The notes beneath the pieces are model-generated. The model was given only the letters and a program-made list of their open reading frames with translations, searched no databases and was not told the DNA's origin. The position numbers and the translations under genes are program-made. A DNA stretch of 64,000 nt. It comes from Ralstonia pickettii. Lineage in GTDB: Bacteria > Pseudomonadota > Gammaproteobacteria > Burkholderiales > Burkholderiaceae. Every line of letters starts with the position of its first letter. Position 1 is the first letter of the stretch. Positions 25,209 to 47,268 of the stretch are shown here, in pieces. The stretch is taken from NCBI RefSeq assembly GCF_001699815.1, contig NZ_MCGB01000072.1, forward strand, positions 1-64,000. The letters are read 5' to 3'.

Positions 25209-25287
25209 CAGGTTTACTCCCCGGATACACGTTTGACAGAAGGCGCCTGCATGGACACACTCCCTGTGCTTCCGTGCGGCGCCTCTC

Positions 25288-26709
25288 ATGTCTCAAACGC
25301 CATCTGTCTACACGCTCCCTATCTTCCGGAATACCCAGGTTGCTGATGAACCGGCACCTGGACGCATCCCCGTAGACCATCAGGTAAAAGGGGAACGGGT
25401 CAAGTATTGGCGCGAGTTGCGTGCCTCCAAGACAGTGAAATGGGAGACGTTCCCGCACTTCCCTCTGGTGCTCAATGCCGACGGATCACCGTGGGCCCCT
25501 GCCTGCCTGTGGTTGTTAGATCGTGCGCGGGCCAGACCCCACAAGGTGTCCTCGCTCAATCCCGTTGCGCAAGGGCTGCGGGCCTACAAGCAGTTCCTCG
25601 ATGAATTTGGGCTCCAGTGGGACGACTTCTCCGCGGTCGACAAATACCTGCGCCCAACCTACCACTACAAGACCCACCTCCAAGGTCTGATTAACAGCGG
25701 CGCAATCAAACACAGCACGGCCAGTAGCCGCATGCAGACGGTGGTGGGCTTCTACCGGTTTCTAATGGAGAGTGAACGACTGGGCTTCCGCCCTCAGAAC
25801 GCCCCATGGGTTGATCGGACAGTCGGCCTTGAATACCGCGACAGCAAGGGTTTCAAGCAGATCAAGGAGGTGACGGCGACCGACGTATCCATCAGGGTTC
25901 CGAAGCGGGACTACGCATGGGATCGCCGGATCGATGACGGCGGAAAGCTGCTGCCACTCTCCCGGCATGAGCAGAAGACACTGGTCAAAGCGCTGAAGCT
26001 GCTCGGCAATCGCGACTACGAGCTGATGCACTACACCGCGCTCCTGACCGGCGCGCGGATCCAGACCGTCCTGACACTGCGTTGGGGCGATTTCGCGACG
26101 CCGCCGAGCCAAATCAACCAGTGGCCGTTCAAGCTGCAATGCGGACCAGGGACAGGTATCGACACCAAAGGCGATGTGCCGGATGTGCACCTGTCGGTGC
26201 AGAAGGACCTCTACGAATGGCTACATATCTACGCTGTCTCTGACCGTGCCGGGTCTAGACGTGAGAAGTCCAACCTCAAGCAGGACCCAATGAACTATCT
26301 GTTCCTGTCCAGTCAAGGTGGCCCCCATTACGAATCCAAGGCTGATCGCAACGCCCTTTGGGATTCCGCCGAACCGCCGCTGAAGCGCTCGTCTCCGACT
26401 GGACAGAACCTCCGGTCCTTCATCACGGACTACGTGATCCCTGAGATCCGCAAGACGATCCCGGCCTTCCACTATCAGTTCCATGACCTGCGGGCCACCT
26501 TTGGAGTCAACTGGGTCGACGCGGTCATGAGGAACCAAGACACGCGCCAGCGTTACATCTGGACTCGAGACCAACTCCGTAAACTCATGTGGCACAAAAG
26601 GCCAACCACGACGGATCTGTACATCGACTACCGCCAGCACACTGAACTCCTCGAAAAGGCCGAGGCTGACTGGAACCACAATCTACTCGACCTCATTCGC
26701 TCAGCCTAA
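25288..26709 (+). CDS. ginA: Tyrosine recombinase of a tripartite module, GinA-like
   Basis: A 473-residue site-specific recombinase and the first gene of the island. The catalytic set is visible: Arg257 in TGARIQTVL, His399 and Arg402 in FHDLRATF, His436 in MWHKRP and the nucleophile Tyr445 in TTTDLYIDY. An N-terminal core-binding domain occupies roughly residues 60-190. It is followed by two other recombinases and a small protein in the same direction, the arrangement defined as ginABCD in GInt islands. The symbol is given by gene order and length, not by an alignment. Confidence 0.82.
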   Translation: MSQTPSVYTLPIFRNTQVADEPAPGRIPVDHQVKGERVKYWRELRASKTVKWETFPHFPLVLNADGSPWAPACLWLLDRARARPHKVSSLNPVAQGLRAYKQFLDEFGLQWDDFSAVDKYLRPTYHYKTHLQGLINSGAIKHSTASSRMQTVVGFYRFLMESERLGFRPQNAPWVDRTVGLEYRDSKGFKQIKEVTATDVSIRVPKRDYAWDRRIDDGGKLLPLSRHEQKTLVKALKLLGNRDYELMHYTALLTGARIQTVLTLRWGDFATPPSQINQWPFKLQCGPGTGIDTKGDVPDVHLSVQKDLYEWLHIYAVSDRAGSRREKSNLKQDPMNYLFLSSQGGPHYESKADRNALWDSAEPPLKRSSPTGQNLRSFITDYVIPEIRKTIPAFHYQFHDLRATFGVNWVDAVMRNQDTRQRYIWTRDQLRKLMWHKRPTTTDLYIDYRQHTELLEKAEADWNHNLLDLIRSA

Positions 26710-26756
26710 CGGTGCGAAGGTCTATAGCGACAAGAACGGACGGGCGGGATACCACC

Positions 26757-28574
26757 ATGCATGAACCTGACTGGATTAGCACGGGCGGCGGCTACCCTAG
26801 TGGTCTGCCTCGCTTGGCATTCCCATTAGAAGGGGCCATGCCCGATCTCTATGTGCCCCAGAGCACGATTCTGCAGACGGCAAATGGAGTCCAGACCCAT
26901 GCTTATCTCTGGTGCTACCTTGAGCGTGAGGTATACGGCAAAAGATATCGGTTCAACCCAGCGAGCCTGTCTACGCAGCGCGTCAAAGACATGCCTAAAG
27001 CCATTGAACGCCTGTCCAAGCGCTTCTGCTTCGACAACGCCAGACCGAGGTCGGTGAGTGACGAGTTGGCCAACGGCATGTCCCGATTCTTGAACTGGAC
27101 TGATCGCCCGATTCACCATAGGCGGTTTGAATCCATCCTGAGCGACCCGGATCTCGCTCTGGAGGCTCTGAAAAAGCACCACAGCTACCTGCGGCAGCGC
27201 ATGCAGGCAAACCAGACAGAAAATCGCATCAGCGTATCTGCGGCGTCGATGATGGATGTCGACGCCATCAAGATGATGGCGGTGATCCACGACCGGGAAT
27301 ACGGCAACGAGATCGAGGCCATCAAGTACATCCACGGTGACGGTGTTAGAACTCCTAAAACCGAAGACGTGGCTGCCTTCATGGCTTGCGTGCAAGGGGT
27401 ATTCGATTCGGTGGCTCGGATCGTTCTCGACACACAGGACTACAACGGCAACTCGTCTCTCGGCGATCTCCGTTGGCAGTCGGAGGGGCGAGAACTCGCG
27501 GTTCCCATCGCAGAAGGCATCCACATCGAGCGTGCCATGGAACTTGGTTGCATGGCGTACGCTGCATTGTGCGTCGGCGACTCCGGCGCCAACCTCGCCC
27601 CAATTCAGTCTTACGAAGAGCCCGAGGACTTACGAGAGCAACTGGATAACCCCGAAAAGCTCAACCTGCGCCACAAGGTCATCAAGTTCCGGGCCGGAGG
27701 AAAGGAGGCGCCGGTTCATCTGACCTCCACCACCGTGACCCGCATGCGGTCTTACCTGCGGCTCCGGGAAGCTCTACGTCTGAGACTCGGGAGCCCTGAA
27801 ATCGGGCCGATGTTCATTCAGTGCATCTACCCCTCGTCGCCTCAAGCGCGGCCTTTAGGGATCATCTCGCTGCCGCCGAACTTCACCTCTGCATTGCGTA
27901 GCAGGTTCAGCGCCGTCGGCATCAAGTTACCGCAAGTGACGATGCAGCAGTTGCGTGCCCATAAAGCCGGCAAGGTTGCCAAGGAACACAATCCCAAGGT
28001 GGCGGCCGACATGATGGGGCACTCGGTAAGCACGGCCATCCGCAGATACAGCAAGATCACGGATGTCGAGGCGAGGTCTGAAATGGCTCCGTTCCTGGCC
28101 TCACTGACCTCAGTGGTCCTGACCCGCTCGGAGGCTGACGCCACGTCGTCCAAGCCAGTCACCCCGTTCACCGCGATCCCCGCCGGAGGCTGCGAAGACC
28201 ACGGCCATCCCGAGGCGCTGGGTGAGAACCCGCTGGTAGAGCCCGATTGCAAGAAGACCGAAGGATGCTTCTTCTGCAACAAGTTCCACGTCCACGCCGA
28301 CGAAGAGGATTGCCTCAAGTTGATGTCTTGCCGATCGGTACTGGAACGCTTGGCACCAAGACTCGGTGATTCAGGCGTGGCTGAACTAGTCTATACCGTC
28401 GTAAGCGAGCGCATCGGTGCCCTACTCGACGAGATCAGGCGCATCAATCCCGAGGCTCATGAGCGTGCTCGGGCAGCCGTCCTGAAGGAAGGCAAGCTCA
28501 GCCGATACTGGGCGAGCAAGCTCCAACAACTTCACTTGCTGGGCCTGCTAGCGCAGTCTTCCGCCCTGGCCTGA
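26757..28574 (+). CDS. ginB: Tyrosine recombinase-like protein, GinB-like, with C-terminal Cys cluster
   Basis: About 605 residues. The C-terminal catalytic half is recognisable, with Arg400 in QQLRAHKAG, His422 in MMGHSVS and Tyr431 in IRRYSKI. The first catalytic arginine is not seen in its expected place (CVGDSGANLAP, near residue 280). After the catalytic part comes a Cys/His-rich stretch, DCKKTEGCFFCNKFHVHA, that could bind zinc. A GTG at 26712, three bases after ginA, is a possible earlier start; I chose the ATG at 26757. The second recombinase of GInt modules fits by position and size. Confidence 0.72.
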   Translation: MHEPDWISTGGGYPSGLPRLAFPLEGAMPDLYVPQSTILQTANGVQTHAYLWCYLEREVYGKRYRFNPASLSTQRVKDMPKAIERLSKRFCFDNARPRSVSDELANGMSRFLNWTDRPIHHRRFESILSDPDLALEALKKHHSYLRQRMQANQTENRISVSAASMMDVDAIKMMAVIHDREYGNEIEAIKYIHGDGVRTPKTEDVAAFMACVQGVFDSVARIVLDTQDYNGNSSLGDLRWQSEGRELAVPIAEGIHIERAMELGCMAYAALCVGDSGANLAPIQSYEEPEDLREQLDNPEKLNLRHKVIKFRAGGKEAPVHLTSTTVTRMRSYLRLREALRLRLGSPEIGPMFIQCIYPSSPQARPLGIISLPPNFTSALRSRFSAVGIKLPQVTMQQLRAHKAGKVAKEHNPKVAADMMGHSVSTAIRRYSKITDVEARSEMAPFLASLTSVVLTRSEADATSSKPVTPFTAIPAGGCEDHGHPEALGENPLVEPDCKKTEGCFFCNKFHVHADEEDCLKLMSCRSVLERLAPRLGDSGVAELVYTVVSERIGALLDEIRRINPEAHERARAAVLKEGKLSRYWASKLQQLHLLGLLAQSSALA

Positions 28575-28631
28575 TCGCTAGACACTGCGCTCACCCTCAA
28601 CCTCACCGAAACCTGCCTGCGGGACGAGTCC

Positions 28632-30650
28632 ATGCAAAGAAGCGATCTGACGACATCGGCAACTACCTCGTCTAACTCTTTGCGGGGAAGGGAGGCCGAC
28701 CGCGATCGCGATTGGGCGCCGGACGGTGTTCCTGGAGTTTCGGGCGGAATACCACAAGCTCCCCACGTGGAGCCCTACTTCGATCCTCAGATGGTCGTGA
28801 CGCTGGATCCAAACGGGCAGCCTCTCAGCCGCTACGGAGACAGAAGCTGGGATCTGCGGTCCATGAGTACAGACGGTGGACAAACCTCGTACTCACACAC
28901 CTTCTTAGATGCACAGCCCCTATCGGGTTCACCAGAAATCGGCAGACCGAACCTTACTGCGCTGATTAGCGAGCAGCAAAAGGCGCTGCTGTGGTTGCAC
29001 ATGGATGCTGGGCGGCAAAGAGCCCTGAGAACGATACTGCAGGCGGGCCGTACGATGAACAGACTCACTCAAGGTGCCGTCAGCCGGGGAATTTCGCTGT
29101 TCGAGTTGTTCTGCAACCCTCAGGTGCTCAGCGAGGAATCGGCGGAATTGAACAGCAGCTACGCCAACACCGTGCGAGCCTTGCTTCGGACACTGTGGCG
29201 CCACCGTGACTTCCTCAAGATTGGGCTCGAAATCCGCTTGAAGCAACTGGTTGAGGTCATCAAGGAATCTGCCCCAGGAGAGGCGAAAGACCGCCAAACG
29301 CCCATCATCCCATCCCGCATCTACTGCGCGATCTTATCTAGCCTGCTGGACCGTCTGGATGAGATCGAGTCTGACCTAGATACTCTACTGGATGCTTACC
29401 GGCAAGAGCGCACGTGCACGCTCAGTGCCTCAAGCTGCCTGACCGACAAGCAGCGATATATGCAACGCGAAATGCAACTCCAAGGGATGCTGGAGGCTAT
29501 GCGGAACAGGGGATGGAAGACGGGAAGCATGCGCGGATTCGTCGCCGGCGAGATCGCCGTAGTCCAACTTAGGCTGATGTGCATCGTAATCGCCTTCACC
29601 GGCATGCGAGTAGCGGAAGCGCAGATCCTGCCGCTCAAAGGAGTTCTGGAGGAGGCGAAACACCGTGACACGGTGCACCACGTGGTCAACGGATACAGTC
29701 ACAAGCTCAACGGTGGCAGAAAGAAGCGCGCCAGTTGGATCACAAGCCGCGAGGGCCATCGGGCAATCTTGCTCGCTCAAAGAATCGCCTCGGTCATCTT
29801 GGAGGTACTGAAAGATGGTGATCCAGCAAACGATGACGCCGCCTTACTGTTCTGTTCGACGGCCAATCCTTACAAGAAGCAGAGTCTTTCGAGCATTTAC
29901 AGACGTCTGCACGGCCAGTTGTTCCCTGAGATTTGCCCCCTCATTACGCAAGCCGACATCGACGAACTCAACGCAATGGAGTTGCAGCGGAACTGGCTGC
30001 GTGAGGGCATGGAGGTCGGCAAACCGTGGCCGCTGGCCTTTCACCAATACCGGCGCAGCCTGTCGGTTTATGCCCATCGCTCGGGCATGGTGAGCCTGCC
30101 GGCGCTCAAAGGACAGCTGCAGCACATCACCGATGAGATGCGCGCGTACTACAGCGATGGGTTCTGCCGGGCAGTCAACCTCGTCTTCGACAAGGAGCAC
30201 TTTAGCCATGATTGGAACGCCGCCAAGTCGGAATCGAGCTTCCTCGCTTACAGCTTAGCCTTGCTGTTCTCGGACGAAGACCTCATCGGCGAAGTGGGTG
30301 GACGGGGCGCGGTCCGAATGCAGCAAACTGTATCCAGCCGATCCAAGGAAGAGACACTGAAACTGTTTCGTGATGGCAAGCTGGCCTATCGCGAAACCGT
30401 TCTGGGCGGTTGCATCGCCGTGGAGGACTGCAATCGCACACCGCTGGAGCCCATTCCTTGGGACTGCCTGGAGAAAGACTGCACCAACGCGGTGGTGTTT
30501 GAAAAACGTCTGGGTCTGTTGATCAAGACGCAGGAGACGGTTGTCGCCACGCTGGCCAGCACAGAAGCGGGCGGCGTTGAGCACCGCCTGGAAGCCGATC
30601 ACCTGCAAGTGCTTCTTAAAGCTCGCAAACGCCTCTCGGAAGCTGTATGA
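28632..30650 (+). CDS. ginC: Tyrosine recombinase, GinC-like
   Basis: A 672-residue recombinase, much longer than single integrases. Catalytic residues: Arg326 in FTGMRVAEAQ, His471 and Arg474 in FHQYRRS, His498 in QLQHIT and Tyr506 or Tyr507 in AYYSDG. The N-terminal 110 residues look disordered, and about 110 residues after the catalytic tyrosine carry several cysteines (GGCIAVEDC, WDCLEKDC). Its stop overlaps the ATG of ginD (ATGA), so the last two genes are translated together. Confidence 0.8.
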   Translation: MQRSDLTTSATTSSNSLRGREADRDRDWAPDGVPGVSGGIPQAPHVEPYFDPQMVVTLDPNGQPLSRYGDRSWDLRSMSTDGGQTSYSHTFLDAQPLSGSPEIGRPNLTALISEQQKALLWLHMDAGRQRALRTILQAGRTMNRLTQGAVSRGISLFELFCNPQVLSEESAELNSSYANTVRALLRTLWRHRDFLKIGLEIRLKQLVEVIKESAPGEAKDRQTPIIPSRIYCAILSSLLDRLDEIESDLDTLLDAYRQERTCTLSASSCLTDKQRYMQREMQLQGMLEAMRNRGWKTGSMRGFVAGEIAVVQLRLMCIVIAFTGMRVAEAQILPLKGVLEEAKHRDTVHHVVNGYSHKLNGGRKKRASWITSREGHRAILLAQRIASVILEVLKDGDPANDDAALLFCSTANPYKKQSLSSIYRRLHGQLFPEICPLITQADIDELNAMELQRNWLREGMEVGKPWPLAFHQYRRSLSVYAHRSGMVSLPALKGQLQHITDEMRAYYSDGFCRAVNLVFDKEHFSHDWNAAKSESSFLAYSLALLFSDEDLIGEVGGRGAVRMQQTVSSRSKEETLKLFRDGKLAYRETVLGGCIAVEDCNRTPLEPIPWDCLEKDCTNAVVFEKRLGLLIKTQETVVATLASTEAGGVEHRLEADHLQVLLKARKRLSEAV

Positions 30651-31024
30651 GCGCCAAGGTCCAAGTCGACAAATACTTCACCGCACTCGAGCGTCTGAAG
30701 GCACGTGGCGAGCCGATCAGCAATGATGCTGTGGCCCTAGAGGCCGGCAGCGGCCGGGGCAGCATCAAGAAGTCCAGGCCTGCCTACGCCGAACTTATCG
30801 CGGCGATCAATGCGGCCGCCAAACAGCAGGCTGAAGCCAAAGTCGCCTCAGATCCTATGCCTGGTATGCGCAAGGACATCGAAGATCTGACGAGGCGACT
30901 GGACCAGTCCCTCGACAGAGAGGTGGCTCTGCTGCACGAGCTCTACGACCTGCGCGCCAAGGCCAAGCAATTGGCGGAAGAGAACCGACTCCTAAAGCTC
31001 GGCAGACTCGTCCCGGTGCAATGA
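30647..31024 (+). CDS. ginD: Small HTH/coiled-coil protein of the recombinase module, GinD-like
   Basis: A 125-residue basic protein. The N-terminal half (YFTALERLKARGEPISNDAV then ALEAGSGRGSIKKSR) looks like a helix-turn-helix. The C-terminal half is a predicted coiled coil rich in Leu, Glu and Arg (RKDIEDLTRRLDQSLDREV and following). It is coupled to ginC through ATGA. In GInt islands a fourth gene of this size is required for excision; its biochemical role is unknown. It may act as a recombination directionality or DNA-bridging factor. Confidence 0.72.
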   Translation: MSAKVQVDKYFTALERLKARGEPISNDAVALEAGSGRGSIKKSRPAYAELIAAINAAAKQQAEAKVASDPMPGMRKDIEDLTRRLDQSLDREVALLHELYDLRAKAKQLAEENRLLKLGRLVPVQ

Positions 31025-31681
31025 GCCTATTCAAAAGGGGTATCCGCATTTGCTGGTTGATGTCCTGATTGTATGCTGCAGTGCAAAAATCTTGCAGTCG
31101 GAAGTGCGATTTCACGATGGGATCGACCGTCCCAGTTCGACCCTTCTCTGCCGTATGCCTTCTGTGGATCGAATGACTGTAATCCCCAGTTGATCGGCCA
31201 TCGAAATTAGTCTAGTCGCGCCAAACCACTCCAGGGATATGCGCTAGAACAGGCCGCCCAAGAATGGCCCGAAGCTCAGCGAGATACAGTGGTTCCTCCA
31301 AATGCGACGGGCCTACAAGACAGCCCAATGCCGAGTTGCAACGGCCGCTGGGCAAGAAGACTTAGCAGGCGGAAATCCTGACGGGAAGCCGTGGAATACG
31401 GACGCTTAAACTCCTTCATCGCTGCAACCAACTGCGAGGCTGGGACTTCTACAACTTCGCCAGCGCTCACGACGGCCAAGCTTCGTTTTGCTCACAACTC
31501 ATATGTGACGAATTAGATCCCATCATTCGCAGCGTTGTTTTCCGCATCACGCCACCCGCCAGCAGCCGCAGCTTCCACCACCGCTCCACCAGACGCTGCC
31601 CACCCCAACTGGGCTCATCTCATGCCGAACGCTGCACTCGCCCACGCGACCCCTATTCGGGTTGATCTCAATCAAATTTTC
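31025..31681. other. Non-coding or degraded stretch after the recombinase module
   Basis: About 650 bases between ginD and the oph promoter show no open frame with coding character. The longest frame (minus strand, 31276-31479, 67 codons) has no recognisable domain or ribosome site. Base composition is mixed and includes a C-rich part near 31550-31620. It may be the remains of an older cargo junction. Confidence 0.4.
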
Positions 31682-31757: not shown

Positions 31758-33089
31758 ATGCTGACCCATGAAGAGAATGAACTGTTGTGCCGAGTAGAAG
31801 GCGATGCCCCGATGGGGAAGCTGATGCGCCAGCACTGGACCCCTGTTTGCCTGATTGAAGAAGTCAGCGAACCGGACGGCGCGCCGGTCAAGGCTCGCGT
31901 TTTTGGTGAAGACCTGGTCGTGTTCCGCGACAACGAGGGGCGCGTCGGTGTGATGGGCGAGTATTGCCCGCACCGCCGAGCATCGCTTGTGTACGGTCGT
32001 AACGAAGACGGTGGCCTGCGCTGCCTGTACCACGGCTGGAAGTTCGACGTGCTGGGCAATGTGCTGGAAATGGTGTCCGAGCCGGCCGCCAGCGGCATGA
32101 CCGAGAAGGTCAAGCACAAGGCGTATCCCTCGAAGGAATGGGGCGGCATGATCTGGGCGTACATGGGTCCGCAGGACACCATTCCCGAATTCGTCGCCCC
32201 CGCCTGGGCTCCGACCGAGGACACCCGAGTCAGCATCGCGAAGGCGCTGCTGCCGTGCAATTGGGCCCAGATCCTTGAGGGCGCGATTGACTCCGCACAT
32301 AGCTCGAGCCTGCACTCGTCCGATTTCGTGCCGGCCCGCGTCGGCGGGGGCGAGGCAACGTCGAAAAACTGGCTGCGTCCGTCCACCGACAAGGCACCGC
32401 GCCTGCAGGTCGAGCGCACCGAATATGGGTTCCGCTATGCTGCGCTGCGCCGCCCAATCTTCAACGCCAACACGCACGACTACGTGCGCTCGACGGTGTT
32501 CGTTGCACCCGGCATCGTGCTGATTCCGCCCAACAACCTGTATAACGTCGCCAACATCAACGTGCCGATGGACGACACGAATACGGCGTTCTACTTCATC
32601 GCGTGGGGCGATCCCGCGACGACCCCGGAAACCGAAACCTGGCGCAAGTTCCTCCATCAACAGATCGGCCCGGATCTGGACGAGCGCTACCGTCCGCTGC
32701 GCAATCACGAGAACCGCTTCTGGCAAGACCGGCAGGCCATGAAGGCTGGCAATTTCACCGGCATCACGGGCTTCCCGAACCAGGACATCGCCATGTGGGT
32801 CACGATGGGTCCGATCGCCAATCGTTCGGACGAGCGTCTGGGCGCGAGCGATCTCGCCATTGTCGAGTTCCGTCGCCGCATGCTCGATGCCCTCGCGGAA
32901 TTCGAGCAGGACGCCGAAGCCATCGGTACCGGCGCGAAGGCGATCCCGCAGACGGTCTGTTCGTATCAGGCAGTGGTGCCGAAGGAGACCGACTGGCGTG
33001 CGTACGCCGCCCGTTATGTCAGCGCGAAGCATGCCCTGCCGGAAGACGAGCCCGCTGCGCTCGCGACCGACTATCAGGTCAGGCAATAA
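31758..33089 (+). CDS. ophA2: Phthalate 4,5-dioxygenase, Rieske oxygenase component
   Basis: A 443-residue Rieske non-heme iron oxygenase that would add O2 to phthalate to give the cis-4,5-dihydrodiol. The Rieske cluster ligands are Cys70/His72 (CPH) and Cys89/His92 (CLYH), and the mononuclear iron site is Asp178-His181-His186 (DSAHSSSLH). The start at 31758 has GGAGA upstream. It is followed after three bases by ophB and fed by the reductase OphA1 encoded 8 kb downstream. Substrate assignment rests on the full oph gene set around it; a related aromatic carboxylate is possible. Confidence 0.85.
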   Translation: MLTHEENELLCRVEGDAPMGKLMRQHWTPVCLIEEVSEPDGAPVKARVFGEDLVVFRDNEGRVGVMGEYCPHRRASLVYGRNEDGGLRCLYHGWKFDVLGNVLEMVSEPAASGMTEKVKHKAYPSKEWGGMIWAYMGPQDTIPEFVAPAWAPTEDTRVSIAKALLPCNWAQILEGAIDSAHSSSLHSSDFVPARVGGGEATSKNWLRPSTDKAPRLQVERTEYGFRYAALRRPIFNANTHDYVRSTVFVAPGIVLIPPNNLYNVANINVPMDDTNTAFYFIAWGDPATTPETETWRKFLHQQIGPDLDERYRPLRNHENRFWQDRQAMKAGNFTGITGFPNQDIAMWVTMGPIANRSDERLGASDLAIVEFRRRMLDALAEFEQDAEAIGTGAKAIPQTVCSYQAVVPKETDWRAYAARYVSAKHALPEDEPAALATDYQVRQ

Positions 33090-33092
33090 GCG

Positions 33093-35216: not shown

Positions 35217-35339
35217 TTGAAAGATCCGATATTGAGCGGAGAAACTGCCTGAGATCGGCAGCTGCCGCACGGAGGCGCCGCCGCCAATCGACTGAATATG
35301 TGGAGAAGGAAAACCTGGCCGCACGGATCTGAGACGTTC

Positions 35340-35918: not shown

Positions 35919-36013
35919 GCTTTCCTCGCCGTGACCGTAACCAAAATGGTTCACATCATAGCGTTCAACAGTGCGCGTGCCGCCTGGCGGCCGCGCACCG
36001 AGGCCCTGAAAAT

Positions 36014-38176: not shown

Positions 38177-38221
38177 TGATGTTCCTTTCAAACAATCGAA
38201 ATCAATCCGTTGCGTGCGTTC

Positions 38222-39568
38222 TCACACACCGGATTTCGGCGCCTGTTGCTGACGTGGCACGCCGAAGAGGACCGCAATACCGCCAGCGAAGACGAGCACG
38301 GCAACCAGCAGGATGCCGGCCGAGAAACTGCCCGTCACGGTCTTTACCCAGCCGAGCACGATCGGGGCGAAGAAGGCACCGACCTGGCCGAGACTGCTGA
38401 TGACGCCGATCCCGCCCGCGGCCGCCTCGCCCTTGAGGTAGTTCGGCGGAATGGTCCAGATGATGGCCGCGGCGGCGAAGTAGCTCACCGAAACGAGGCT
38501 CAGGCACACGATCGCAGCGGCCGGGTTGTGGGTCAGCATCGTCAACAGCGTTGCGCCCGCGGCACCCGCCGTCGTGGACAGAAAGAAGTGCCAGCGACGC
38601 TCAAGCCGCATATCGGAGCTGCGTGCAATCAGCAGCATGGCAACGGCGCCGACGATGTAAGGCAACGCCGACAGGAAGCCGATCTCCAGCATGTTGGAGA
38701 TGCCCGTCTGCTTGATGATGGTTGGCGTCCAATAGTTCAGGATCGTGCCGCAGATGGGTACCGTGGCCCAGCCTGCTGCGATCACATAGACGCGTGGGTC
38801 GCGCAGCGCAACCATCAGGCGGCTCGGCGCGCTGTCTGGTTTCTGGCGGTGTTCTTCCTCCAGGGCGGCCACGATAATGCGCTTCTGTGCGGCAGTCAGC
38901 CACTTCGCATCCTGCGGTTTATCGACCAAATAGAACCAGGCAAAAACACCTGCAAGCACAGCCGGCAGGCCCTCAATGAACAACAGCCACTGCCAGTTGC
39001 GGAAGCCCCAGACATCCGTGAAATTCTGGAGAATCAGGCCAGAAAGCGGGCCGCCGATGATGCCGGCGACGGCAATCGCCAGCAGGAATCGCGACGTGAT
39101 ACGAGCGCGACGCTGCGCGGGATACCAGAACGAGAGATAGAGAATGATCCCCGGCCAGAAGCCCGCCTCCGCCGCGCCAAGCAGCGTCCGGGCGAGATAG
39201 AACTGCCAGGGGGCATTCATGAAGGCCATTGCTGTGGAAATGGTGCCCCACAACAGCATGATCCGCGTTACGGTCTTGCGTGCGCCGATGCGCCTGAGTA
39301 GCAACGTGCTCGGCACTTCGAGCAGGATGTAGCCGATGAAGAACAGGCTCACGCCGAGCCCGTATGCGGCATCGCTGAGTCCCAGGTCCTGCTTCAACTG
39401 CAGTTGCGCGAAGCTGATATTGACGCGATCGAGATAGTTCAGCACCCAGCAGAGGAACAGGAAACTCATCAGCCTGAGTGTGATCTTTCGATAGGTCGCC
39501 TCTACGGCTACGGAATCGTCGCTCAGATGCGGGGGCGCATCCGCGTAGCTCAACGTGGAGTCATTCAT
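38222..39568 (-). CDS. ophD: MFS transporter for phthalate (OphD/Pht1-like)
   Basis: A 448-residue major-facilitator permease of the anion:cation symporter family with about 12 membrane helices. Characteristic pieces are [18 protein letters not shown] in the first helix, the [20 protein letters not shown] loop, and [17 protein letters not shown] in the central loop. It would bring phthalate across the inner membrane. It is the first gene of the minus-strand unit ophD-ophC-porin, and its upstream region contains the oph operator at 39654-39669. Confidence 0.85.
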
Positions 39569-39833: not shown

Positions 39834-40796
39834 ATGACTACCCAGGACACCGGTTTTCTGCGGCTGACGATCGCGGAGAAGGAAAAGATTGCGCGCGACA
39901 TCTGGCGCTTTGAACTGACCGATCCGCAGGGCGCGCCTCTTCCGCCATTCGAAGCCGGATCGAATCTGACCGTCGTGGTGCCCAATGGCATGCGCCGCAG
40001 CTATTCCCTCTGCAACGATTCGCAGGAAAGTCATCGCTACGTCATCGCGGTCAAGCGCGACAGCAATGGTCGCGGCGGCTCCATGAGCCTGATCGACGGC
40101 ACGTCCACCGGTGATCTGATTGACGTATCCCTGCCGCGAAACGAATTTCCGCTCGACGAGCGCGCGAAATCGTTCATTCTTGTCGCGGGTGGCATTGGCA
40201 TCACGCCGATGCTCTCGATGGCGCGCCAACTGAAGGCGGAAGGATTGCGGGATTTCAAGCTGTACTACCTGGCTCGCGACCCGGAAGGTACAGCGTTCCT
40301 GGACGAACTCAGCAGCGACCAATGGCGCTCGAGGGTGAAAATTCACCACGATCTCGGCGACCCCACCAAATCATTCGACTTCTGGACCCTGTTCGAGCGC
40401 CCCAAGGCCGCACACATCTACTGCTGCGGGCCGCAGATGCTAATGGACACGGTGCGCGACATGACGGGGCACTGGCCGCCTGGCACGGTTCACTTTGAGA
40501 GCTTTGGCGCCAATAACGCGAACGCGCAAGTGAACACGCCGTTCATCGTTCGGCTCAAGCGCACCGGTACGCCGCTGGACATCCCGGCTGATCGATCGAT
40601 CCTTGATGTGCTGCGCGCAGAAAATGTGCACGTTGCAAGCTCATGCGAAAGCGGCACCTGCGGATCCTGCCGGACCGCGCTGTGCTCGGGCGAGGCGGAT
40701 CATCGAGACATGGTGCTGCGGGACGACGAGAAAGCCACGCAGATCATGGTCTGCGTATCGCGTGCAAAATCGGGCGAACTGGTTCTGGACCTCTGA
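39834..40796 (+). CDS. ophA1: Phthalate dioxygenase reductase
   Basis: A 320-residue iron-sulfur flavoprotein that passes electrons from NADH to the oxygenase OphA2. The domain order is flavin (RRSYSLCN near residues 51-58), NAD (VAGGIGITPMLSMARQL, later YCCGPQMLMD) and a C-terminal plant-type 2Fe-2S cluster with Cys271, Cys276 and Cys279 (CESGTCGSC) plus a Cys near 309. This order is typical of phthalate dioxygenase reductase. GGAGA precedes the ATG. It is divergent from ophD, as in Burkholderia oph clusters, and is followed by a hemerythrin gene. Confidence 0.88.
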   Translation: MTTQDTGFLRLTIAEKEKIARDIWRFELTDPQGAPLPPFEAGSNLTVVVPNGMRRSYSLCNDSQESHRYVIAVKRDSNGRGGSMSLIDGTSTGDLIDVSLPRNEFPLDERAKSFILVAGGIGITPMLSMARQLKAEGLRDFKLYYLARDPEGTAFLDELSSDQWRSRVKIHHDLGDPTKSFDFWTLFERPKAAHIYCCGPQMLMDTVRDMTGHWPPGTVHFESFGANNANAQVNTPFIVRLKRTGTPLDIPADRSILDVLRAENVHVASSCESGTCGSCRTALCSGEADHRDMVLRDDEKATQIMVCVSRAKSGELVLDL

Positions 40797-40839
40797 TACA
40801 TCCCGCCGCAACGCACGAACCCAACACGAGGACTTGACC

Positions 40840-41337
40840 ATGAGCGACCAGACTCCCTCCCGCGCCCCAACCACACGGGATACCAGTGCGCCGACGCCGG
40901 CCAGCGACAACAGTCTCGCCTGGTCCGATATGCGTCTCCTCGGGTTCACGCCCATGGACGACGTGCACGAGGAGTTTCACACGCTTGCACTGAAACTGGT
41001 GACCTGCTCGGATGCGAGCGCCGCCGATGCAATCGAACGATTCGAGCAGCACGCGATCAGCCATTTTGAGCAGGAAGATGAATGGATGCGCTCCACCAAC
41101 TTCCCTCCGCGGGACTGCCACCTCGCCGAGCATGCGGCTGTGCTCAAATCGGTCGGTGACGTCAAGCAAGCCGTGGCGCTAGGAGAGGCCGGCGCCGACG
41201 TGGTTCGAAGCTTGGGGATGGCTCTCTTTGACTGGTTCCCGATTCATGCCGACTACCTGGATTCCGCGCTGGCAGCCTGGATGACAAAACAGACCATGGG
41301 CGGAAAGCCCATCGTGTTGCGCCGCACGCTCGCCTGA
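40840..41337 (+). CDS. Bacteriohemerythrin
   Basis: A 165-residue protein with the four-helix di-iron oxygen-binding fold. Ligand residues are visible in order: VHEEFHTLAL, HAISHFEQEDEWM, CHLAEHAAVL and HADYLDSAL, giving the H...H...HxxxE...H...H...D set. The first 30 residues are Ser/Thr/Pro-rich and likely disordered. It begins 43 bases after ophA1 in the same direction, so it is probably induced with the dioxygenase. Supplying or buffering O2 for ring hydroxylation is a reasonable but unproven role. Confidence 0.85.
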   Translation: MSDQTPSRAPTTRDTSAPTPASDNSLAWSDMRLLGFTPMDDVHEEFHTLALKLVTCSDASAADAIERFEQHAISHFEQEDEWMRSTNFPPRDCHLAEHAAVLKSVGDVKQAVALGEAGADVVRSLGMALFDWFPIHADYLDSALAAWMTKQTMGGKPIVLRRTLA

Positions 41338-41744
41338 ATTGGCTCACGGGCTCACCCCCACTTCGAGGGCAGCGCACTGCGCGGACGTGGAGCTGTTTAG
41401 TCCTTCGTCGGCCGGCGATACATTTAAGTGGTGCCAGCGGCCGAACGTAATGCTACTTCGGCCGTTCGGCAAATGCGTATGGTTGGCTGCTTCTGGCCGT
41501 TCGGCGACCCTCATTCGCCCATGTCGCACGATACATTGCACCGCACAAGGCGAAATCAACCACGAAATGCGGATACCCTTCAAAAGTAGGTACGTTGCGG
41601 CCTGACCAGCACTAGTGATCAGGTCCAACAAATCCACCTTCACGGCTTCCTGACGCACGTTGCAAAAGGGCTAGGTCGAGGTCACCGACATCTTCATTGG
41701 CTTTCCGAATGTGGGTTGTTCAGCTGGACAGCAGCGGCTTGTGC
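41338..41744. other. Intergenic stretch between the oph and defence cargo
   Basis: About 400 bases without a convincing gene. GGCCGTTCGGC-like motifs recur (near 41429, 41459 and 41497). A minus-strand frame at 41344-41658 has no recognisable domain and no ribosome site. This is probably a junction between two cargo segments. Confidence 0.4.
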
Positions 41745-42257
41745 TTACCTCGTCGGCTTGTCGGCCTGAAACTCGATGATGACGCCAAGCGCTGCGAGTT
41801 GCGGCGGCACTTCCGGGTGTTCACGACAAACGCGCGTGAAAGAATCCGCGATCTCTCCGATGGTGACAGTCCTGATCTTCGGCCCGTACACCTCAACAGC
41901 ATTCATAAAGCCCGTGGCGTATCCCATTTCAACCAAGCGGCCTTGGTCGGTGTTCGACTGTGCGACCCACTCCCGGCAGCTATCCAAAACCGTAGCGTGC
42001 GTGGGCGCGGCCCCGGCTGAGAGGCCGTGTGCGAGAACCAGCGTCGAGTCTTCCTTCTCCTGCGAACCGGGCATGACAATTAGGTCTTCCAGTTTCGGAT
42101 CGCCTGGCTTCGCTGTCGGGACGCTCGGGAGTTGGCCAGTTGCCCGTCCATAGGTGATAAGCCTGGCGGGGTCGAAGTCAGCGGGGAGTCCGTTGTCTGC
42201 TGCCTGCGCAACAGTGGCAACGAGAACGGTTGCCGCGAACAGAACTGTGCGTTTCAT
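41745..42257 (-). CDS. Small periplasmic protein, possibly Rap1a/Tai immunity-like
   Basis: A 170-residue protein with a clear signal peptide (MKRTVLFAATVLVATVAQA). The C-terminal half, with CREWVAQ, GYATGFMNAVE and then RVCREHPEVPPQLAALGVI, resembles by eye the Rap1a/Tai type VI immunity domain, which has a Gly-Tyr-x-x-Gly helix and a C-terminal HPE. Two cysteines could form a disulfide. It is the third gene of a minus-strand operon behind the SieB-like gene. The function is not certain; periplasmic immunity or phage-exclusion help are both possible. Confidence 0.55.
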   Translation of the reverse strand: MKRTVLFAATVLVATVAQAADNGLPADFDPARLITYGRATGQLPSVPTAKPGDPKLEDLIVMPGSQEKEDSTLVLAHGLSAGAAPTHATVLDSCREWVAQSNTDQGRLVEMGYATGFMNAVEVYGPKIRTVTIGEIADSFTRVCREHPEVPPQLAALGVIIEFQADKPTR

Positions 42258-42267
42258 CGAATTTTTC

Positions 42268-42774
42268 CTACAGCAGAAGCTCAGGCTCCGCCGAGAGAAT
42301 TTCACGAGCCCATGGTTGCATGTTGAACGGAAACCCAAGTCCATATGAAACGGATGATGCTCTATACAGTACCCTCTTTCCCTCCAACCCTCGCACGGCG
42401 CCGTCGTTTAGGCTGTAAGTGACCGACGCGGCCTGGTCGCGGATGTAGGGAATCAGAACTGCCTTCTCGTCCGGTGTAAGCGTTGTCAGCCACTTTCGTC
42501 TGACCTTACGCATCCGCGCATCGTCTAGCAACGAGCCGATTACATTGAAAACCCATGCGAGCCCGTGCGCGAGCAGATAGGCACAGGAAGCCAGTAACGC
42601 GAATCCAATCCACATTCGATACTTCGCGAGAAAGTCCGCGAGACCTGTTGCAGCAATAGCGTGTGCCGGAGCGTATAAAAGTGCCCCGCTAGCGAGTGCG
42701 ATGGCAAGTAGTGGCTTTACGGCAATCTGCCCAACTGCCTTAATGCCCTCAGCAATGTCCCCAATCATGCCCAT
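42268..42774 (-). CDS. Superinfection exclusion protein B (SieB)-like membrane protein
   Basis: A 168-residue protein with two membrane segments, at about residues 19-42 and 52-76. A cytoplasmic domain follows, with LTPDEKAVLIPYIRD, LNDGAVRGLEGKRVLYRAS and GFPFNMQPWAREIL. This domain pattern is that of SieB, which in lambdoid prophages aborts infection by some other phages. The ribosome site AGGAAAA precedes the ATG. It is in an operon with a 49-residue protein upstream and a periplasmic protein downstream, next to a Gabija-like pair. Confidence 0.75.
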   Translation of the reverse strand: MGMIGDIAEGIKAVGQIAVKPLLAIALASGALLYAPAHAIAATGLADFLAKYRMWIGFALLASCAYLLAHGLAWVFNVIGSLLDDARMRKVRRKWLTTLTPDEKAVLIPYIRDQAASVTYSLNDGAVRGLEGKRVLYRASSVSYGLGFPFNMQPWAREILSAEPELLL

Positions 42775-42944: not shown

Positions 42945-43126
42945 TGAGGCGTTCTCCCCATTTTCGTTTTAGTTACGAGATGGTACGTGAGCTGCCGGTC
43001 AAAAATGGGACGCTAGTCCAATGTCCACGCCGCGTCCTCAGAAAATCAGACAAATGCAACCCTGCGCACTAGTCCTTTGCCGCCGATGGCGGCGAACCTG
43101 TTGCGGACCTATTCAGGCTTACAGCA

Positions 43127-43154
43127 TTGCCAAGCGGCAGATCGAACGTACAAT
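43127..43154 (+). promoter_or_regulatory. Promoter of the Gabija-like operon
   Basis: TTGCCA (43127-43132) and TACAAT (43149-43154) are spaced by 16 bases on the plus strand. The predicted leader is about 70 bases. It contains a possible hairpin, CCCAGGC against GCCTGGG (about 43180-43212), just before the ribosome site. Confidence 0.5.
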
Positions 43155-43231
43155 TTCGCAGGACCGCCACGCGGGCCCCCAGGCAATAGCATCAAGACAA
43201 AGGCGCCTGGGCAGGGAAAGGGAGACCGGAC

Positions 43232-45265
43232 GTGAAGCTGTCCGAAATTGCCATCATGAACTTCCGGCTGCTGCAGTACGCCCGTATGCGGCTGGACACG
43301 ACAGGCATCACCACGATCCTCGTCGGCCCCAACAATAGCGGCAAGACTTCGGCCATCGAGGCCATGCTGACCTTCCTGCAAAGGCCGATCAAGCAGCTGT
43401 CGATCAATGATTTTTCTCTGGGGTGTCGCGATGCCCTAAAGAAGTTTGAGCAGCACGTCCTAGCGCCGCCTGCGGCGGCCGCACCCGCGGGGGGCGAAGC
43501 TGCAGTAGCCGCGCCACCGCCCCTCCCCGACTTGCCGGTCTTGTCGTTGCGCCTCAAGTTCGACTACGACGACACGGGCCCAGATTTGGCGATTGCAGGG
43601 GAGTTGCTGATGGATCTGGAGGATGCGTCCGCCTCGGTGATGGTCGAAATCCGCTTCGCGCCTGCGAATCCCGAGCAACTGGCGCAGGCCTACCTGAAGG
43701 ACCGGGACGACGATCAGTCGCTTTTCGATTATCTTGCGGCCACCCTGCATGACCACTACAAGCTCGACCAATTCAAGTTGAGCCCTGACGGCAGCGAAGC
43801 CGAGCGCCTGCCCGACCGAGGCATCTTGCAGCGGCTGATCCGCATCGACGTCGTCAGCGCTCAGCGCCACATCGACGACCGTGAAGAAGGCAGCAAGGCC
43901 ACGCGCCTCTCGACATTGCTCCACACGCACTACGAGCGCCGCTACAAAGTCGATGCTCCCAACGATTTCAAGGCACTCGAGAAGACGCTGCGGGACCAGT
44001 CCACCATCCTTGGCCCTCAGTACGTCAAGGCTTTCGACGGCCTGATGAAGGGGTTGGCGAAGTTCGGCCATCCGGAATCCCCCAAGCTAACTGTGCGCGC
44101 TGAGCTCAGCGCCGATGGCCTTTTCAAGGACACGACGCGCGTCTACTACTCGGCGGCCAGCGCAACGACGCCACCAGCCGAGGGACCCGCGGCAGCGCTT
44201 GATCAGGCCTTCGAGCTTCCCGAGCGATACAACGGACTCGGGTTCAAGAACCTCATCTACATTGTTCTGTGCCTCAAGTCCTTCCGTGAGGACGTGGAGT
44301 CTGACCTCGAGCATCGTCCCCGTGTCCACTTGGTCGTCGTTGAGGAGCCCGAGGTGCACATGCATCCTCAGATGCAGGCGGTCTTCGTCCAGAAGGTCAG
44401 CGAGTTCCTCACACCCGCTGCGGGTGAGACCGGCGTGCAACTGCTGCTGACGACGCACTCATCGCACATGGCGGCCAACTGCGGCTTCGCGCCGATTCGC
44501 TACTTCCGGCGAAACAAGGGAACGGTCGAGATCAAGGACCTGCTGTCCTTCGAGTGCTCTGCAACGACCGACCCCGAAAAGGCCGCGATGGAGTTCCTGC
44601 GGAAGTACTTGACGACCACTCGATGCGACATGTTCTTCGCGGACAAGCTCGTGTTCATCGAAGGGCAAGTCGAGCGCATGCTTCTGCCTCGCCTAATCGC
44701 CGCCCTGGATATCGCACTGCGCGACAAGCTAACCTCGACTTATGTCTGCACGGTAGAAGTGGGCGGCGCGTACGCACATCTCTTCCGCAAGCTGATCGAG
44801 TTCTTGCAGTTGCCGGCTCTGGTCATCACCGATTTGGATTCGATCGATGGCACAACCAAGAAGAAGGCGCCCGTCGCAAACGGGCATGTCAGCAGTAATG
44901 CAACCCTGTCTCAGTGGCTTCCAGGAAGTTCTGATTTGCCTGTGCTGATGGCGGCTGGCGAAGCACAAAAGACCTCTGGACGTGTCCGGGTTGCCTATCA
45001 AGTCCCGGAAGCAGTCGGCCAACCGTGCGCTCGCAGCTTCGAGGAAGCCTTTGTCTACGCGAACGCGGCATGGCTGACCGCCAACAAAGCCAAGATGTTG
45101 GCCACCGGAGAAACATTCACTCATGCTGACGCCGCAGCCCTGACCGCGGACGCCTACAACGTAAGTCTGCCGAAGGTCGACTTTGCGCTTGATCTGCTGG
45201 CCAACGAAGGCTGGGCCACACCGATGTACATCCGCGAGGGGCTCGAATGGTTGGCGAAGCAGTAG
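43232..45265 (+). CDS. OLD-family ATP-dependent endonuclease with TOPRIM domain, GajA-like
   Basis: A 677-residue ABC-type ATPase fused to a TOPRIM nuclease. Walker A is GPNNSGKT (32-39), Walker B is VVVEEPEVHMHPQ, and the His switch is LLLTTHSSHM. The TOPRIM acidic residues are Glu477 (FIEGQVERMLL) and Asp534/Asp536 (TDLDSIDG). With a UvrD-type helicase gene overlapping its end, this is the Gabija arrangement, an anti-phage system in which GajA nicks DNA. It is about 100 residues longer than the best-known GajA and has an Ala/Pro-rich insert at about residues 74-98. The start is a GTG behind AAGGGAGA. Confidence 0.8.
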   Translation: MKLSEIAIMNFRLLQYARMRLDTTGITTILVGPNNSGKTSAIEAMLTFLQRPIKQLSINDFSLGCRDALKKFEQHVLAPPAAAAPAGGEAAVAAPPPLPDLPVLSLRLKFDYDDTGPDLAIAGELLMDLEDASASVMVEIRFAPANPEQLAQAYLKDRDDDQSLFDYLAATLHDHYKLDQFKLSPDGSEAERLPDRGILQRLIRIDVVSAQRHIDDREEGSKATRLSTLLHTHYERRYKVDAPNDFKALEKTLRDQSTILGPQYVKAFDGLMKGLAKFGHPESPKLTVRAELSADGLFKDTTRVYYSAASATTPPAEGPAAALDQAFELPERYNGLGFKNLIYIVLCLKSFREDVESDLEHRPRVHLVVVEEPEVHMHPQMQAVFVQKVSEFLTPAAGETGVQLLLTTHSSHMAANCGFAPIRYFRRNKGTVEIKDLLSFECSATTDPEKAAMEFLRKYLTTTRCDMFFADKLVFIEGQVERMLLPRLIAALDIALRDKLTSTYVCTVEVGGAYAHLFRKLIEFLQLPALVITDLDSIDGTTKKKAPVANGHVSSNATLSQWLPGSSDLPVLMAAGEAQKTSGRVRVAYQVPEAVGQPCARSFEEAFVYANAAWLTANKAKMLATGETFTHADAAALTADAYNVSLPKVDFALDLLANEGWATPMYIREGLEWLAKQ

Positions 45266-47004
45266 CCGCGGCCGCGCCCGAAAAGACAGCGGACGAGCGC
45301 ATCGCCGAATGCCTCGCCGAGGGTCGCAGTTTCGTTCTCGACGCTGGTGCCGGCGCGGGCAAGACTTACTCTCTCGTCGAGGGTCTGAAGAAGCTCTGTG
45401 CACCGACGGTCGCCGACCGGCTCAGGCGTGACGGGCAGCAGATCGCCTGCATCACCTATACCAATGTGGCCAAGGACCAGGTGATTGACCGCATCCAGGG
45501 CAACTCTTTGGTGCGTGTCTCGACTATCCATGACTTCCTATGGAGCACGTTGCAGCCCCACCAGCAAGCCCTTCGGCAGGCTCTGCTCGATTTCAATGCT
45601 GCACTCCCCACGGGGAGCTCGCGTCGGGTTGATCAAGCGGAACTAGCAGCAAGGGTCGCCGCCCGGCTTGAGGTGAAGTACTCGGACCGGGGCTCCAAGT
45701 TCCTCGAGGGTCGGATCTATCACGACGACCTGCTTTCGATCGCGCGCATCGCCTACACCAGATACGACAAGCTGGCGCGCATCGTGGCGAGCCGCTACCC
45801 CTACATCTTCATCGACGAGTACCAGGACACCAGCGAAGCAGTGATCGACATCCTGCTTTGCCGGATGCTACCGCTGGCTGGCAACAAGCTCGTGCTCGGA
45901 TTTTTCGGTGACAAGATGCAGAACATCTATCACCATGGAGAACACAAGGGGATCGGCGAACTTCCAGCTGAGCTGGCAGCGCCACTTGAGGTCATCGTCA
46001 AGCGCGAGAACCGTCGTTGCTCGCTGCGCGTCATGGATGTGTTGAACAACATCCGGACCGACATCACGCAGATACCTGGGAGCAACAACGCGCAAGGCGA
46101 CGTAGCGTACATCCGCGTTGCGGCTGGTGCCGATGAAGCGGGTCTTCAACGCGCACGCGACCTGCTGACCGACACCTTGAACTGGGACCTGGCAAGCCAA
46201 GGAACACGCGAGCTTTACCTCACCCATCGGCTGATTGCCCGCAAGGCTGGTTTTGCTGACTTGCTTCAGGCCTTCACGGATCGTGGGTCCTTTGCCAAGG
46301 ATGCCCTCACCGACGGCTCTGATCGGCGGATTGCGTTCTTCTTGGAGAAGGTTGAACCGCTGGCCCTGGCCTGGGAGAAGGGGCAGATCGGCGAGACGCT
46401 GGGCCGGCTCCATGGCGCGGGGCACCGACTAGCCAGTCGCACAGCAAAGTCTGGCGTGCGCGATGCGCTTAATGCCCTGACGGCAAAGCGAGCTGCCGGC
46501 ACAGTCCGTGAAGTGCTTGAGACGATCCGCGACCGCCAGCTATTCCCACTGACCGATGACTTGGCCCTCCGGCTTGTAAACACGCAGCCCATCCTCACTG
46601 CGGAGATGGATGATGCCGCGAAAGAGCGCGAGCAACTGGAGGCGACGCTGTACGGGGCCTTCTTCGCGCTTCCCTACCAGCAGGTCGCCGCCTTCGCCCG
46701 GTTCTTCATGACCAGCACGCCGTTTGCTACCAAGCATGGCGTGAAGGGAGACGAGTTCGATACCGTGCTGGTCGTGCTGGACGACTCCGGCGCCGCGTGG
46801 ACCTTCTATTCGTTCGACAAGTACCTGTCCGGTGCGGATGAGACGGCGAAACCAGAGCGCGCAAAGCGGTCTCGCAATGTCTTCTACGTCTGCTGCTCTA
46901 GGGCCCGGCAGAGGCTGGCGGTGATCGATCTCACCGGTGCTTCCGCGGCGAAGGACGAGCGAATGCGCACGCTGTTCGGACTGGACCGCTGCTATGAGGT
47001 ATAG
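45247..47004 (+). CDS. UvrD/Rep-family helicase, GajB-like
   Basis: A 585-residue superfamily 1 helicase. Motif I is AGAGAGKT (33-40), motif II is DEYQDT from Asp190, motif V is HGVKGDEFDTVLV, and motif VI is VFYVCCSRARQRLAV. The start overlaps the 3' end of the nuclease gene by 19 bases, so production of the two proteins is coupled. In Gabija, GajB senses DNA ends and works with GajA. The pair could also be another OLD-helicase type (class 2 OLD), which overlaps with Gabija by definition. Confidence 0.8.
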   Translation: MVGEAVAAAAPEKTADERIAECLAEGRSFVLDAGAGAGKTYSLVEGLKKLCAPTVADRLRRDGQQIACITYTNVAKDQVIDRIQGNSLVRVSTIHDFLWSTLQPHQQALRQALLDFNAALPTGSSRRVDQAELAARVAARLEVKYSDRGSKFLEGRIYHDDLLSIARIAYTRYDKLARIVASRYPYIFIDEYQDTSEAVIDILLCRMLPLAGNKLVLGFFGDKMQNIYHHGEHKGIGELPAELAAPLEVIVKRENRRCSLRVMDVLNNIRTDITQIPGSNNAQGDVAYIRVAAGADEAGLQRARDLLTDTLNWDLASQGTRELYLTHRLIARKAGFADLLQAFTDRGSFAKDALTDGSDRRIAFFLEKVEPLALAWEKGQIGETLGRLHGAGHRLASRTAKSGVRDALNALTAKRAAGTVREVLETIRDRQLFPLTDDLALRLVNTQPILTAEMDDAAKEREQLEATLYGAFFALPYQQVAAFARFFMTSTPFATKHGVKGDEFDTVLVVLDDSGAAWTFYSFDKYLSGADETAKPERAKRSRNVFYVCCSRARQRLAVIDLTGASAAKDERMRTLFGLDRCYEV

Positions 47005-47151
47005 CAGCACGGCGCAGATCCGTGACCGGCAGGGAGGGCCACCACTGACGCCGACGAAGGTCCGCCCATGTACCTGCTCTACCGCGGCTGCGCGGTTGGC
47101 CCACGCAAGGGCTCTGAGAAGCCTCTGCTCGATGTACACTTCAGGCTTTGT

Positions 47152-47268
47152 AGTGTCCATATCTACTGGCCACACGAGCGACACAAGGAATCACCTAAGT
47201 TGTTGATTGCTCAGCCATTCGATGTGTCCATATACCCGTAGACTTGCTAATGTTGTTCAACGTCTGAC
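47152..47268. repeat. Right-end repeats of the island (candidate attachment region)
   Basis: The motif AGTGTCCATAT (from 47152) recurs as TGTGTCCATAT (from 47223), 71 bases later, and the inverted form ATGGACACA is at the left end (25251). ACGTCTGAC (47260-47268) nearly repeats ACGTTTGAC at the left end. The surrounding 600 bases (47005-47605) hold no gene that I can support. Confidence 0.4.

Follow-up and report, generated by a model that had tools for sequence, protein, structure and literature searches.

A probable GInt-like integrative element in the last codons of ychF in Ralstonia pickettii, with phthalate and defence cargo

In Ralstonia pickettii (assembly GCF_001699815.1, contig NZ_MCGB01000072.1), ychF is followed by a row of recombinase genes, a phthalate-catabolic gene set and phage-defence genes. 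What kind of element brings these together, where does it begin and end, and how could it have come to lie at this site? The locus belongs to a window of 64,000 nucleotides, the whole stretch analysed (positions 1 to 64,000 of the contig, forward strand), to which all coordinates refer unless another contig or locus is named. The genes form an island within the last codons of ychF, and this island is probably a site-specific integrative element of the superfamily of GInts and strand-biased circularizing integrative elements (SEs), on its GInt-like side and in a lineage that targets those codons.

Insertion site, sister elements and ends

The mobile island is a 22,050-bp insert at 25203-47252, present as one copy in its genome and set between ychF (24117-25208, + strand; Pfam YchF-GTPase_C) and a phytochrome kinase gene (from 47606). 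The closest relative with an empty site (L003) aligns with the window over 24000-25202 and 47254-48758 at 95-96%, and these two blocks therefore place the ends at 25203 and 47252, inside ychF, and not at 25229 and 47268 as given in the preliminary description. Six-nucleotide cores flank the insert at 25197-25202 on the left and 47253-47258 on the right. The search for the ychF 3' end covered 16 genus genomes, the island's own among them, and comparison with other Ralstonia genomes, a check proposed earlier, revealed the expected empty site: the gene runs uninterrupted (...LFNV-stop) directly into its terminator in 14 of the 15 other genomes, and the remaining one, Ralstonia sp. SET104, is occupied. 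All 14 empty sites read TTC-(CTG or TTG)-TTC-AAC-GT(C or G)-stop, with the core 6-mer CTGTTC in 13 and TTGTTC in one; the left core of the island, CTGTTC (25197-25202, + strand), is the common form and corresponds to the host attB core.

Insertion changes the YchF C-terminus from ...LFNV to ...LFH, as the first codons of the insert, CAT TAA, provide a new in-frame stop, and it pushes the displaced AAC GTC TGA (47259-47267, + strand) and the ychF terminator to the right end of the island. A stable hairpin with a T run starts 38-44 nt past the ychF stop in 14/14 empty sites, and the copy in the window (47288-47314, + strand) folds at -32.6 kcal/mol; this hairpin is absent from the list produced by a simple terminator scan. 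The earlier suggestions that the island parts ychF from its own terminator, and that the hairpin at 47288 is that terminator, are both upheld by the empty sites. The island is lower in GC content (about 60% vs 66%). Rfam returned no match across 24000-48500, and promoter scans near both island ends found none.

A genome scan with the second gene of the island's four-gene recombinase module recovered three relatives. The element of Cupriavidus necator UYPR2.512 (L020) has the same ychF junction and other cargo, and is 86% identical in nucleotides to the window from ychF to 31135, that is, through gene 4, and 84.5% identical over 220 bp at the right end. The element of Ralstonia sp. SET104 (L021; genome G013) has the same left junction at the same ychF codons, again with other cargo, and its right end lies at a contig edge. 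The third, from a Rubrivivax metagenome-assembled genome (L022), carries the module at 65-80% protein identity and has a right end followed by AACGTCTGA, on a piece that spans neither ychF nor the left end. In L021, a 5.7-kb stretch, cut just before ATGTCTCAA, separates gene 1 from the left end, and in L022 the left end likewise does not directly precede gene 1; in the ychF lineage cargo can therefore be placed to the left or the right of the module. Gene 3 was found at E<=1e-40 in 23 of 398 family genomes, its own included, with G013 and G325 the only others at 80%. A profile scan across the class reached 3 of 369 genomes, again counting its own, too small a number for seeking GInts located at ssb, and a DNA search of Escherichia coli with an operon fragment gave no match. 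Other GInt-like operons of the family begin at varied sites; one (L089) apparently lies within the end of a gene that resembles glyoxalase by eye, with the last codons changed. No ssb was recognised by eye upstream of 11 GInt-like loci, for which no family search was made.

The termini of the island are imperfect inverted repeats. The left repeat, C (CATTAACAGGTTTAC, 25203-25217, + strand), which supplies the CAT TAA stop and occupies the same place in L020 and L021, agrees with the inverse of the right repeat, C' (CATTAGCAAGTCTAC, 47238-47252, - strand), in 12 of 15 bases when both are read from the exact termini. From these ends a circle joint would be expected to carry a 6-nt spacer between the repeats; SEs have imperfect terminal inverted repeats of 13-19 bp and a 6-bp spacer in the joint. 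Further inward, TGGACA recurs at fixed distances, at +50 in 3/3 left ends and at +23 and +94 in 4/4 right ends (in the SET104 right-end slice, which starts a base earlier, the positions are +24 and +95); in the window the two right-end sites, 71 bp apart, lie in 47153-47160 and 47224-47231 on the - strand. The pattern of C' plus TGGACA occurs in two of the 16 genus genomes, in both cases at element right ends, and these are the only occupied ones.

The 6-mers beside the repeats differ between the two sides. All three left ends carry CTGTTC, and none of the four right 6-mers equals it: TTGTTC in the window (47253-47258, + strand), CTTTTC in L020, GCCTGC in SET104 and GTCATG in L022. TTGTTC and CTTTTC are Leu-Phe codons. 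A 24-nt pattern for the ychF end, which replaced a narrower earlier one (15 of 396 genomes in a search at outside-genus scale), matched 118 of 200 family genomes, matches that were taken as ychF and not each confirmed; among these, by eye, 27 carry TTGTTC and one CTTTTC. The ends fit the SE rule, under which host core lies beside C and carried spacer beside C', and the right 6-mer would then be a footprint of the last site occupied.

A strong hairpin (25235-25292, + strand; -35.2 kcal/mol, z -6.18) contains the left TGGACA (25252-25257) and reaches into the start codon of gene 1, ginA. It is stronger in L020 (-44.6 kcal/mol, z -9.20) and weaker in L021 (-25.8, z -3.05), where cargo parts it from gene 1. 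By analogy with the behaviour of IS10 and IS50, it may shield gene 1 from ychF read-through.

The recombinase module and its class

The module comprises four co-directional genes of 473, 620, 672 and 125 aa at 25288-31024 (+ strand). Gene 1 (25288-26709) encodes a GinA-like tyrosine recombinase with full catalytic residues (R257 K294 H399 R402 H436 Y445), as does gene 3 (28632-30650), a large tyrosine recombinase (R326 K358 H471 R474 H498 Y507). The R-K-HxxR-H-Y set is intact in both genes in the 12 operons compared first (12/12), and for gene 3 it was rechecked in 16/16 when the comparison was extended. Gene 2 (26712-28574), whose siblings begin at an ATG corresponding to 26757, encodes a degenerate tyrosine-recombinase-like protein that retains K, R and Y and is without the first Arg and the HxxR His in 16 of 16 operons. 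Gene 4 (30647-31024) encodes a small GinD-like protein, 76-94% identical in three siblings. The earlier account of three recombinases plus a small gene is thus accurate as to a four-gene GInt-type module, but only two of the three carry the full catalytic residues.

Profile comparison with solved structures matched gene 2 to XerC-like 4a8e at E 0.0021, with an unrelated GTP-binding protein at 0.59, and found nothing for gene 3 at E 1. In Pfam, no recombinase matched genes 1, 2 and 4, gene 3 had a Phage_integrase match below the cut-off (0.0031) and gene 4 had two weak matches only (0.0027 and 0.017); NCBIfam gave none at 0.001 for any of the four, and a search over eight gene 2 members gave XerC at 0.092 and XerS at 0.18 (one member each) and, at 0.02, a single hypothetical-protein family. 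Catalytic residues do not always agree with domain calls, as a Klebsiella plasmid operon (L104) illustrates: RefSeq labels its first two genes integrases, and Pfam finds weak Phage_integrase matches in these two but not in gene 3, yet of genes 2 and 3, the two whose residues were compared, gene 3 has the catalytic set and gene 2 is without the first Arg. Across operons the genes are colinear, the sole cross-position match below E 0.01 being one of 49 residues at 0.004.

The class is assigned by relationship to other operons. Gene 2 of the window matches those of other GInt-like operons at 9e-62 to 2e-4 and gene 4 at 8e-23 to 0.04 (0.04 for B. dolosa only), whereas against SE genes the values do not fall below 0.007 for gene 2 (pAQU1, 0.007-0.009) or below 10 for gene 4. 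The SE reference was the operon at L038 31978-37969 of pAQU1, a plasmid named as an SE carrier (PMC10214605), where it was identified by gene order and a blaGMA-1 neighbour. In a gene 3 tree the ychF rows are joined at 100/100, and each of 200 bootstrap trees separates the five SE-type rows from the three ychF rows, two of the SE-type rows being long and unsure in placement. It is unlikely, then, that the island is an SE proper, the first in Betaproteobacteria. Such an identity would account for the shared order of recombinase, degenerate partner, large recombinase and small protein, and for the imperfect terminal repeats and 6-nt spacer, which are SE features in PMC10214605, and matches to SE genes 2 and 4 do exist for some GInt-like operons; set against it are the E values of the window's own genes 2 and 4 to pAQU1 and the split in the tree. 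In addition, the available part of PMC10214605 reports GInts in Betaproteobacteria and found no relatives of the SE genes Tfp and Srap there, which is why the island is filed as GInt-like.

The preliminary assignment to a GInt-type four-gene island is accordingly supported by relation to other GInt-like operons and not by direct comparison with a published GInt. A better match to RIT elements, which had been named as grounds for abandoning it, did not emerge from the one RIT-like trio compared (pHG1, L024), whose best match to the module is E 0.003, to gene 2. That trio (L024 2359-5604) is encoded on the other strand from a GInt-like operon, between whose genes 1 and 2 it lies.

Phthalate and defence cargo

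The cargo was earlier described as joining a complete phthalate-to-protocatechuate set with SieB-like and Gabija-like genes, and the catabolic part is confirmed by two of its enzymes, a phthalate 4,5-dioxygenase oxygenase (OphA2-like; 31758-33089, + strand; PDB 7fjl/7v25, 1.8e-246) and a 4,5-dihydroxyphthalate decarboxylase (37184-38191, - strand; 9jp7 '4,5-dihydroxyphthalate decarboxylase', 1.3e-131). Family matches identify a Gfo/Idh/MocA dehydrogenase of probable OphB-like role (33093-34280, +), a MarR regulator (35340-35954, -), a porin (36014-37078, -), an MFS transporter that may take up phthalate (38222-39568, -) and an FAD/2Fe-2S reductase of probable OphA1-like role (39834-40796, +). 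A quinolinate phosphoribosyltransferase-like gene (34371-35324, -; nadC 1.7e-88) presumably has an OphE-like role, and a hemerythrin-like gene (40840-41337, +) was scanned as the longer open reading frame 40603-41334. With near whole-length matches and nothing essential different, the set resembles phthalate 4,5-dioxygenase (oph/pht) clusters and is ordinary cargo. A relative of its first two genes occurs at E<=1e-100 in 49 of 396 family genomes, its own included. A second phthalate oxygenase/dehydrogenase pair lies elsewhere in the same genome (C50:2546-5069, L097; 81% identity, both open, with a quinolinate phosphoribosyltransferase-like neighbour), and the block may therefore be redundant. 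The genome also has pcaH, at C56 (354.9 bits vs a cut-off of 296.4).

A 27-bp inverted repeat flanks the block, with copy a behind gene 4 (31038-31064, + strand) and copy b, its inverse, at 41552-41578 (- strand); the 24-nt motif occurs exactly only these two times in the 5.24-Mb genome, and viral contigs hold no exact copy of the repeat. A further copy with 2 mismatches (C57:115245-115268) stands behind a hairpin on another contig, and because a relative of the repeat thus exists elsewhere in the genome, the idea of a cargo border was set aside. The block could in principle be a separate transposon within the island, with the repeats at 31038 and 41552 as its borders, as their position and its resemblance to clusters elsewhere might suggest: three other genomes, G012 (from the genus of the island's host), G330 and G219, have clusters lacking the porin part that align with most of the block (31.60-41.35 kb) at 91-93% identity, with about 87% at the hemerythrin end in two of them. 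This homology ends before the repeats, however, copy a is native to the region following gene 4 in L020 and L021, both of which have no phthalate block, the further copy lies elsewhere and the annotated block genes include no transposase, all of which makes a separate transposon improbable. Degenerate intergenic sequence at 41380-41640 and 31130-31640 resembles part of the G013 element close to its right end (L066 331-620) and looks like a decayed dispersed repeat.

The Gabija-like genes are likewise confirmed. GajA, the nuclease (43232-45265, + strand; PADLOC 1.6e-174), with ATPase and TOPRIM parts, adjoins GajB, the UvrD-like helicase (45247-47004, +; 5.8e-155), and P-loops are present; near whole-length matches, with nothing essential different, mark this too as ordinary cargo. 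The SieB-like superinfection-exclusion gene (42268-42774, - strand) has a Pfam SieB match at 8.1e-28, but no PADLOC model matches it at E 0.01, and its earlier identification holds to that extent. Beside it, a small protein (41745-42344, -) of unassigned function has weak matches only, from E 0.17, and none at E 0.001 in Pfam or 0.01 in PADLOC.

Defence-type genes also lie in or beside each of the three sisters examined. L020 carries ThiF, JAB and CapP-like genes (CapP 1.7e-71), and at 14739-18970 helix-turn-helix and CapP-like genes adjoin those for the ThiF and JAB-domain proteins, which may be a ubiquitin-like system. L021 carries an LmuB-like ATPase of the SMC type (2.5e-23), left of gene 1 at 3644-8375, and right of gene 4, at 15370-20932, a trio of Hsp70, an IetA-like AAA protein (1.6e-26) and an unknown protein that is possibly a defence system. 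In L022 a type I restriction set stands left of gene 1, within the element only if the left end lies beyond the set. GInts are reported as defence-carrying elements (PMC10121019), often with restriction-modification systems (PMC5385486); a figure legend in the available part of PMC10121019 lists Gabija among systems with no tie to a GInt, and no statement linking Gabija itself to a GInt was found in the literature searched. The combination of nutrient gain and phage defence had been called unusual: both are present, but defence is not unusual in view of the sisters and these reports, and because the sisters also carry defence genes the phthalate block alone stands out.

Movement and comparison with known systems

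How would such an island move? Genes 1 and 3 would encode two active tyrosine recombinases, assisted by the degenerate gene 2 protein and the small gene 4 protein; together they would bind the C/C' repeats and the TGGACA sites and join the ends into a circle, to be inserted at the CTGTTC core of ychF. On insertion the host core would stay beside C on the left and the incoming spacer would come to lie beside C' on the right, as reported for SEs. YchF would still be made, because C begins with CAT TAA, and in ychF read-through transcripts the hairpin across the start of ginA may keep this gene silent. The cargo would funnel phthalate to protocatechuate, for which pcaH is at hand in the same genome, and Gabija would give phage resistance.

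A wider proposal, on which our judgement is close to balanced but leans towards doubt, is that GInt-like and SE elements share a movement mechanism and an end design, in which two recombinases and a degenerate partner act on C/C' and fixed TGGACA arms with one-sided placement of a 6-nt spacer. The right 6-mer would then record the last site, here the ychF of another species (TTGTTC, and CTTTTC in the Cupriavidus sister), and the start-codon hairpin would shield gene 1 from ychF read-through. The opposite possibility, that the island is an immobile remnant whose ends are intact but which no longer moves, agrees with its single genome copy and with the absence of any observed movement; all four genes are open, however, genes 1 and 3 keep their catalytic residues, both ends are present and sisters sit at the same codons in other species, and we regard a remnant as a poor prospect.

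Several observations weigh against the reading of the island as a mobile GInt-like element with this mechanism. Mobility is deduced from sequence, no excision, circle or transfer having been observed, and the class was set with no published GInt sequence in the comparison. The first Arg is missing from gene 2 and present in gene 3 (R326), unlike in published GInts, where it is missing from GinC, the third protein (PMC5385486). The GInt-like/SE border is unclean, with gene 2 of pWTJH6 matching that of pEC111 at 3e-9 and Klebsiella L104 matching pAQU1 at 4e-6 in gene 2 and pEC111 at 9e-7 in gene 4, and the 11-row non-SE branch of the gene 3 tree, at 87/97, is under the tree tool's starred level. 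Predicted structures of gene 2 (four sequences) have a mean predicted local distance difference test score (pLDDT) of 32.4. Paired changes in the hairpin between two species were not above those of shuffles (128/500). Two of the four right 6-mers, GCCTGC and GTCATG, are not ychF-like, and an origin in a previous ychF is therefore not general; the trace may stem from other sites too, or the idea of a trace may be wrong. That all four right 6-mers are unlike the core is weak support for a placement bias, the ends being few.

The strand bias of GInt recombination has been called elusive and the relationship of SE, GInt, RIT and Tn554 elements vague (PMC10214605). The ychF lineage offers an exact target, four right ends, three left ends and conserved sub-terminal sites, and the question of strand bias is therefore directly testable in it. 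By joining a pollutant-degrading pathway to phage defence, one small island could move both traits; no conjugation genes are among those annotated in it. The open-licence literature searched names no ychF-targeting GInt and no GInt with a phthalate set, and a satellite prophage of Streptococcus pneumoniae is located upstream of ychF (PMC10383233).

Among known systems the island is probably closest to the GInts (Bardaji et al. 2017, PMC5385486; Tn6571-family in PMC10121019), with which it shares a 5' operon of four genes for one small and three recombinase-type proteins, a specific insertion site at the end of a gene whose product thereby gains a changed C-terminus, an empty site in relatives, and mixed cargo, here about 16 kb compared with a published 2.5-70 kb. 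It differs in its new target, ychF, and in the position of the degenerate protein, second here and third in published GInts. The operon delimits the 5' end in published GInts, an arrangement with cargo after gene 4 that holds for the window and L020, but not for L021 and apparently not for L022, where cargo precedes gene 1. Compared with the 10-17 nt imperfect direct repeats of GInts, the island flanks share TGTTC outright and 7 of 11 positions by eye, and compared with their short AT-rich 3' end, the island shows a mild rise, with 53% AT in the last 100 bp and 40% in the island (46% over 150 bp at the end of L020). SEs (PMC10214605; pAQU1) resemble it in gene order, terminal imperfect inverted repeats, the 6-nt spacer and a left core as in the host with a different right 6-mer, and differ in that the window's genes 2 and 4 are not recognisably related to the SE Tfp/Srap genes and that its host is a betaproteobacterium. 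The RIT-like trio in pHG1 also has three tyrosine recombinases in a row, but with shorter proteins (420, 327 and 336 aa) and no small fourth gene seen. Set beside these systems, the island represents a new lineage within an established type of element.

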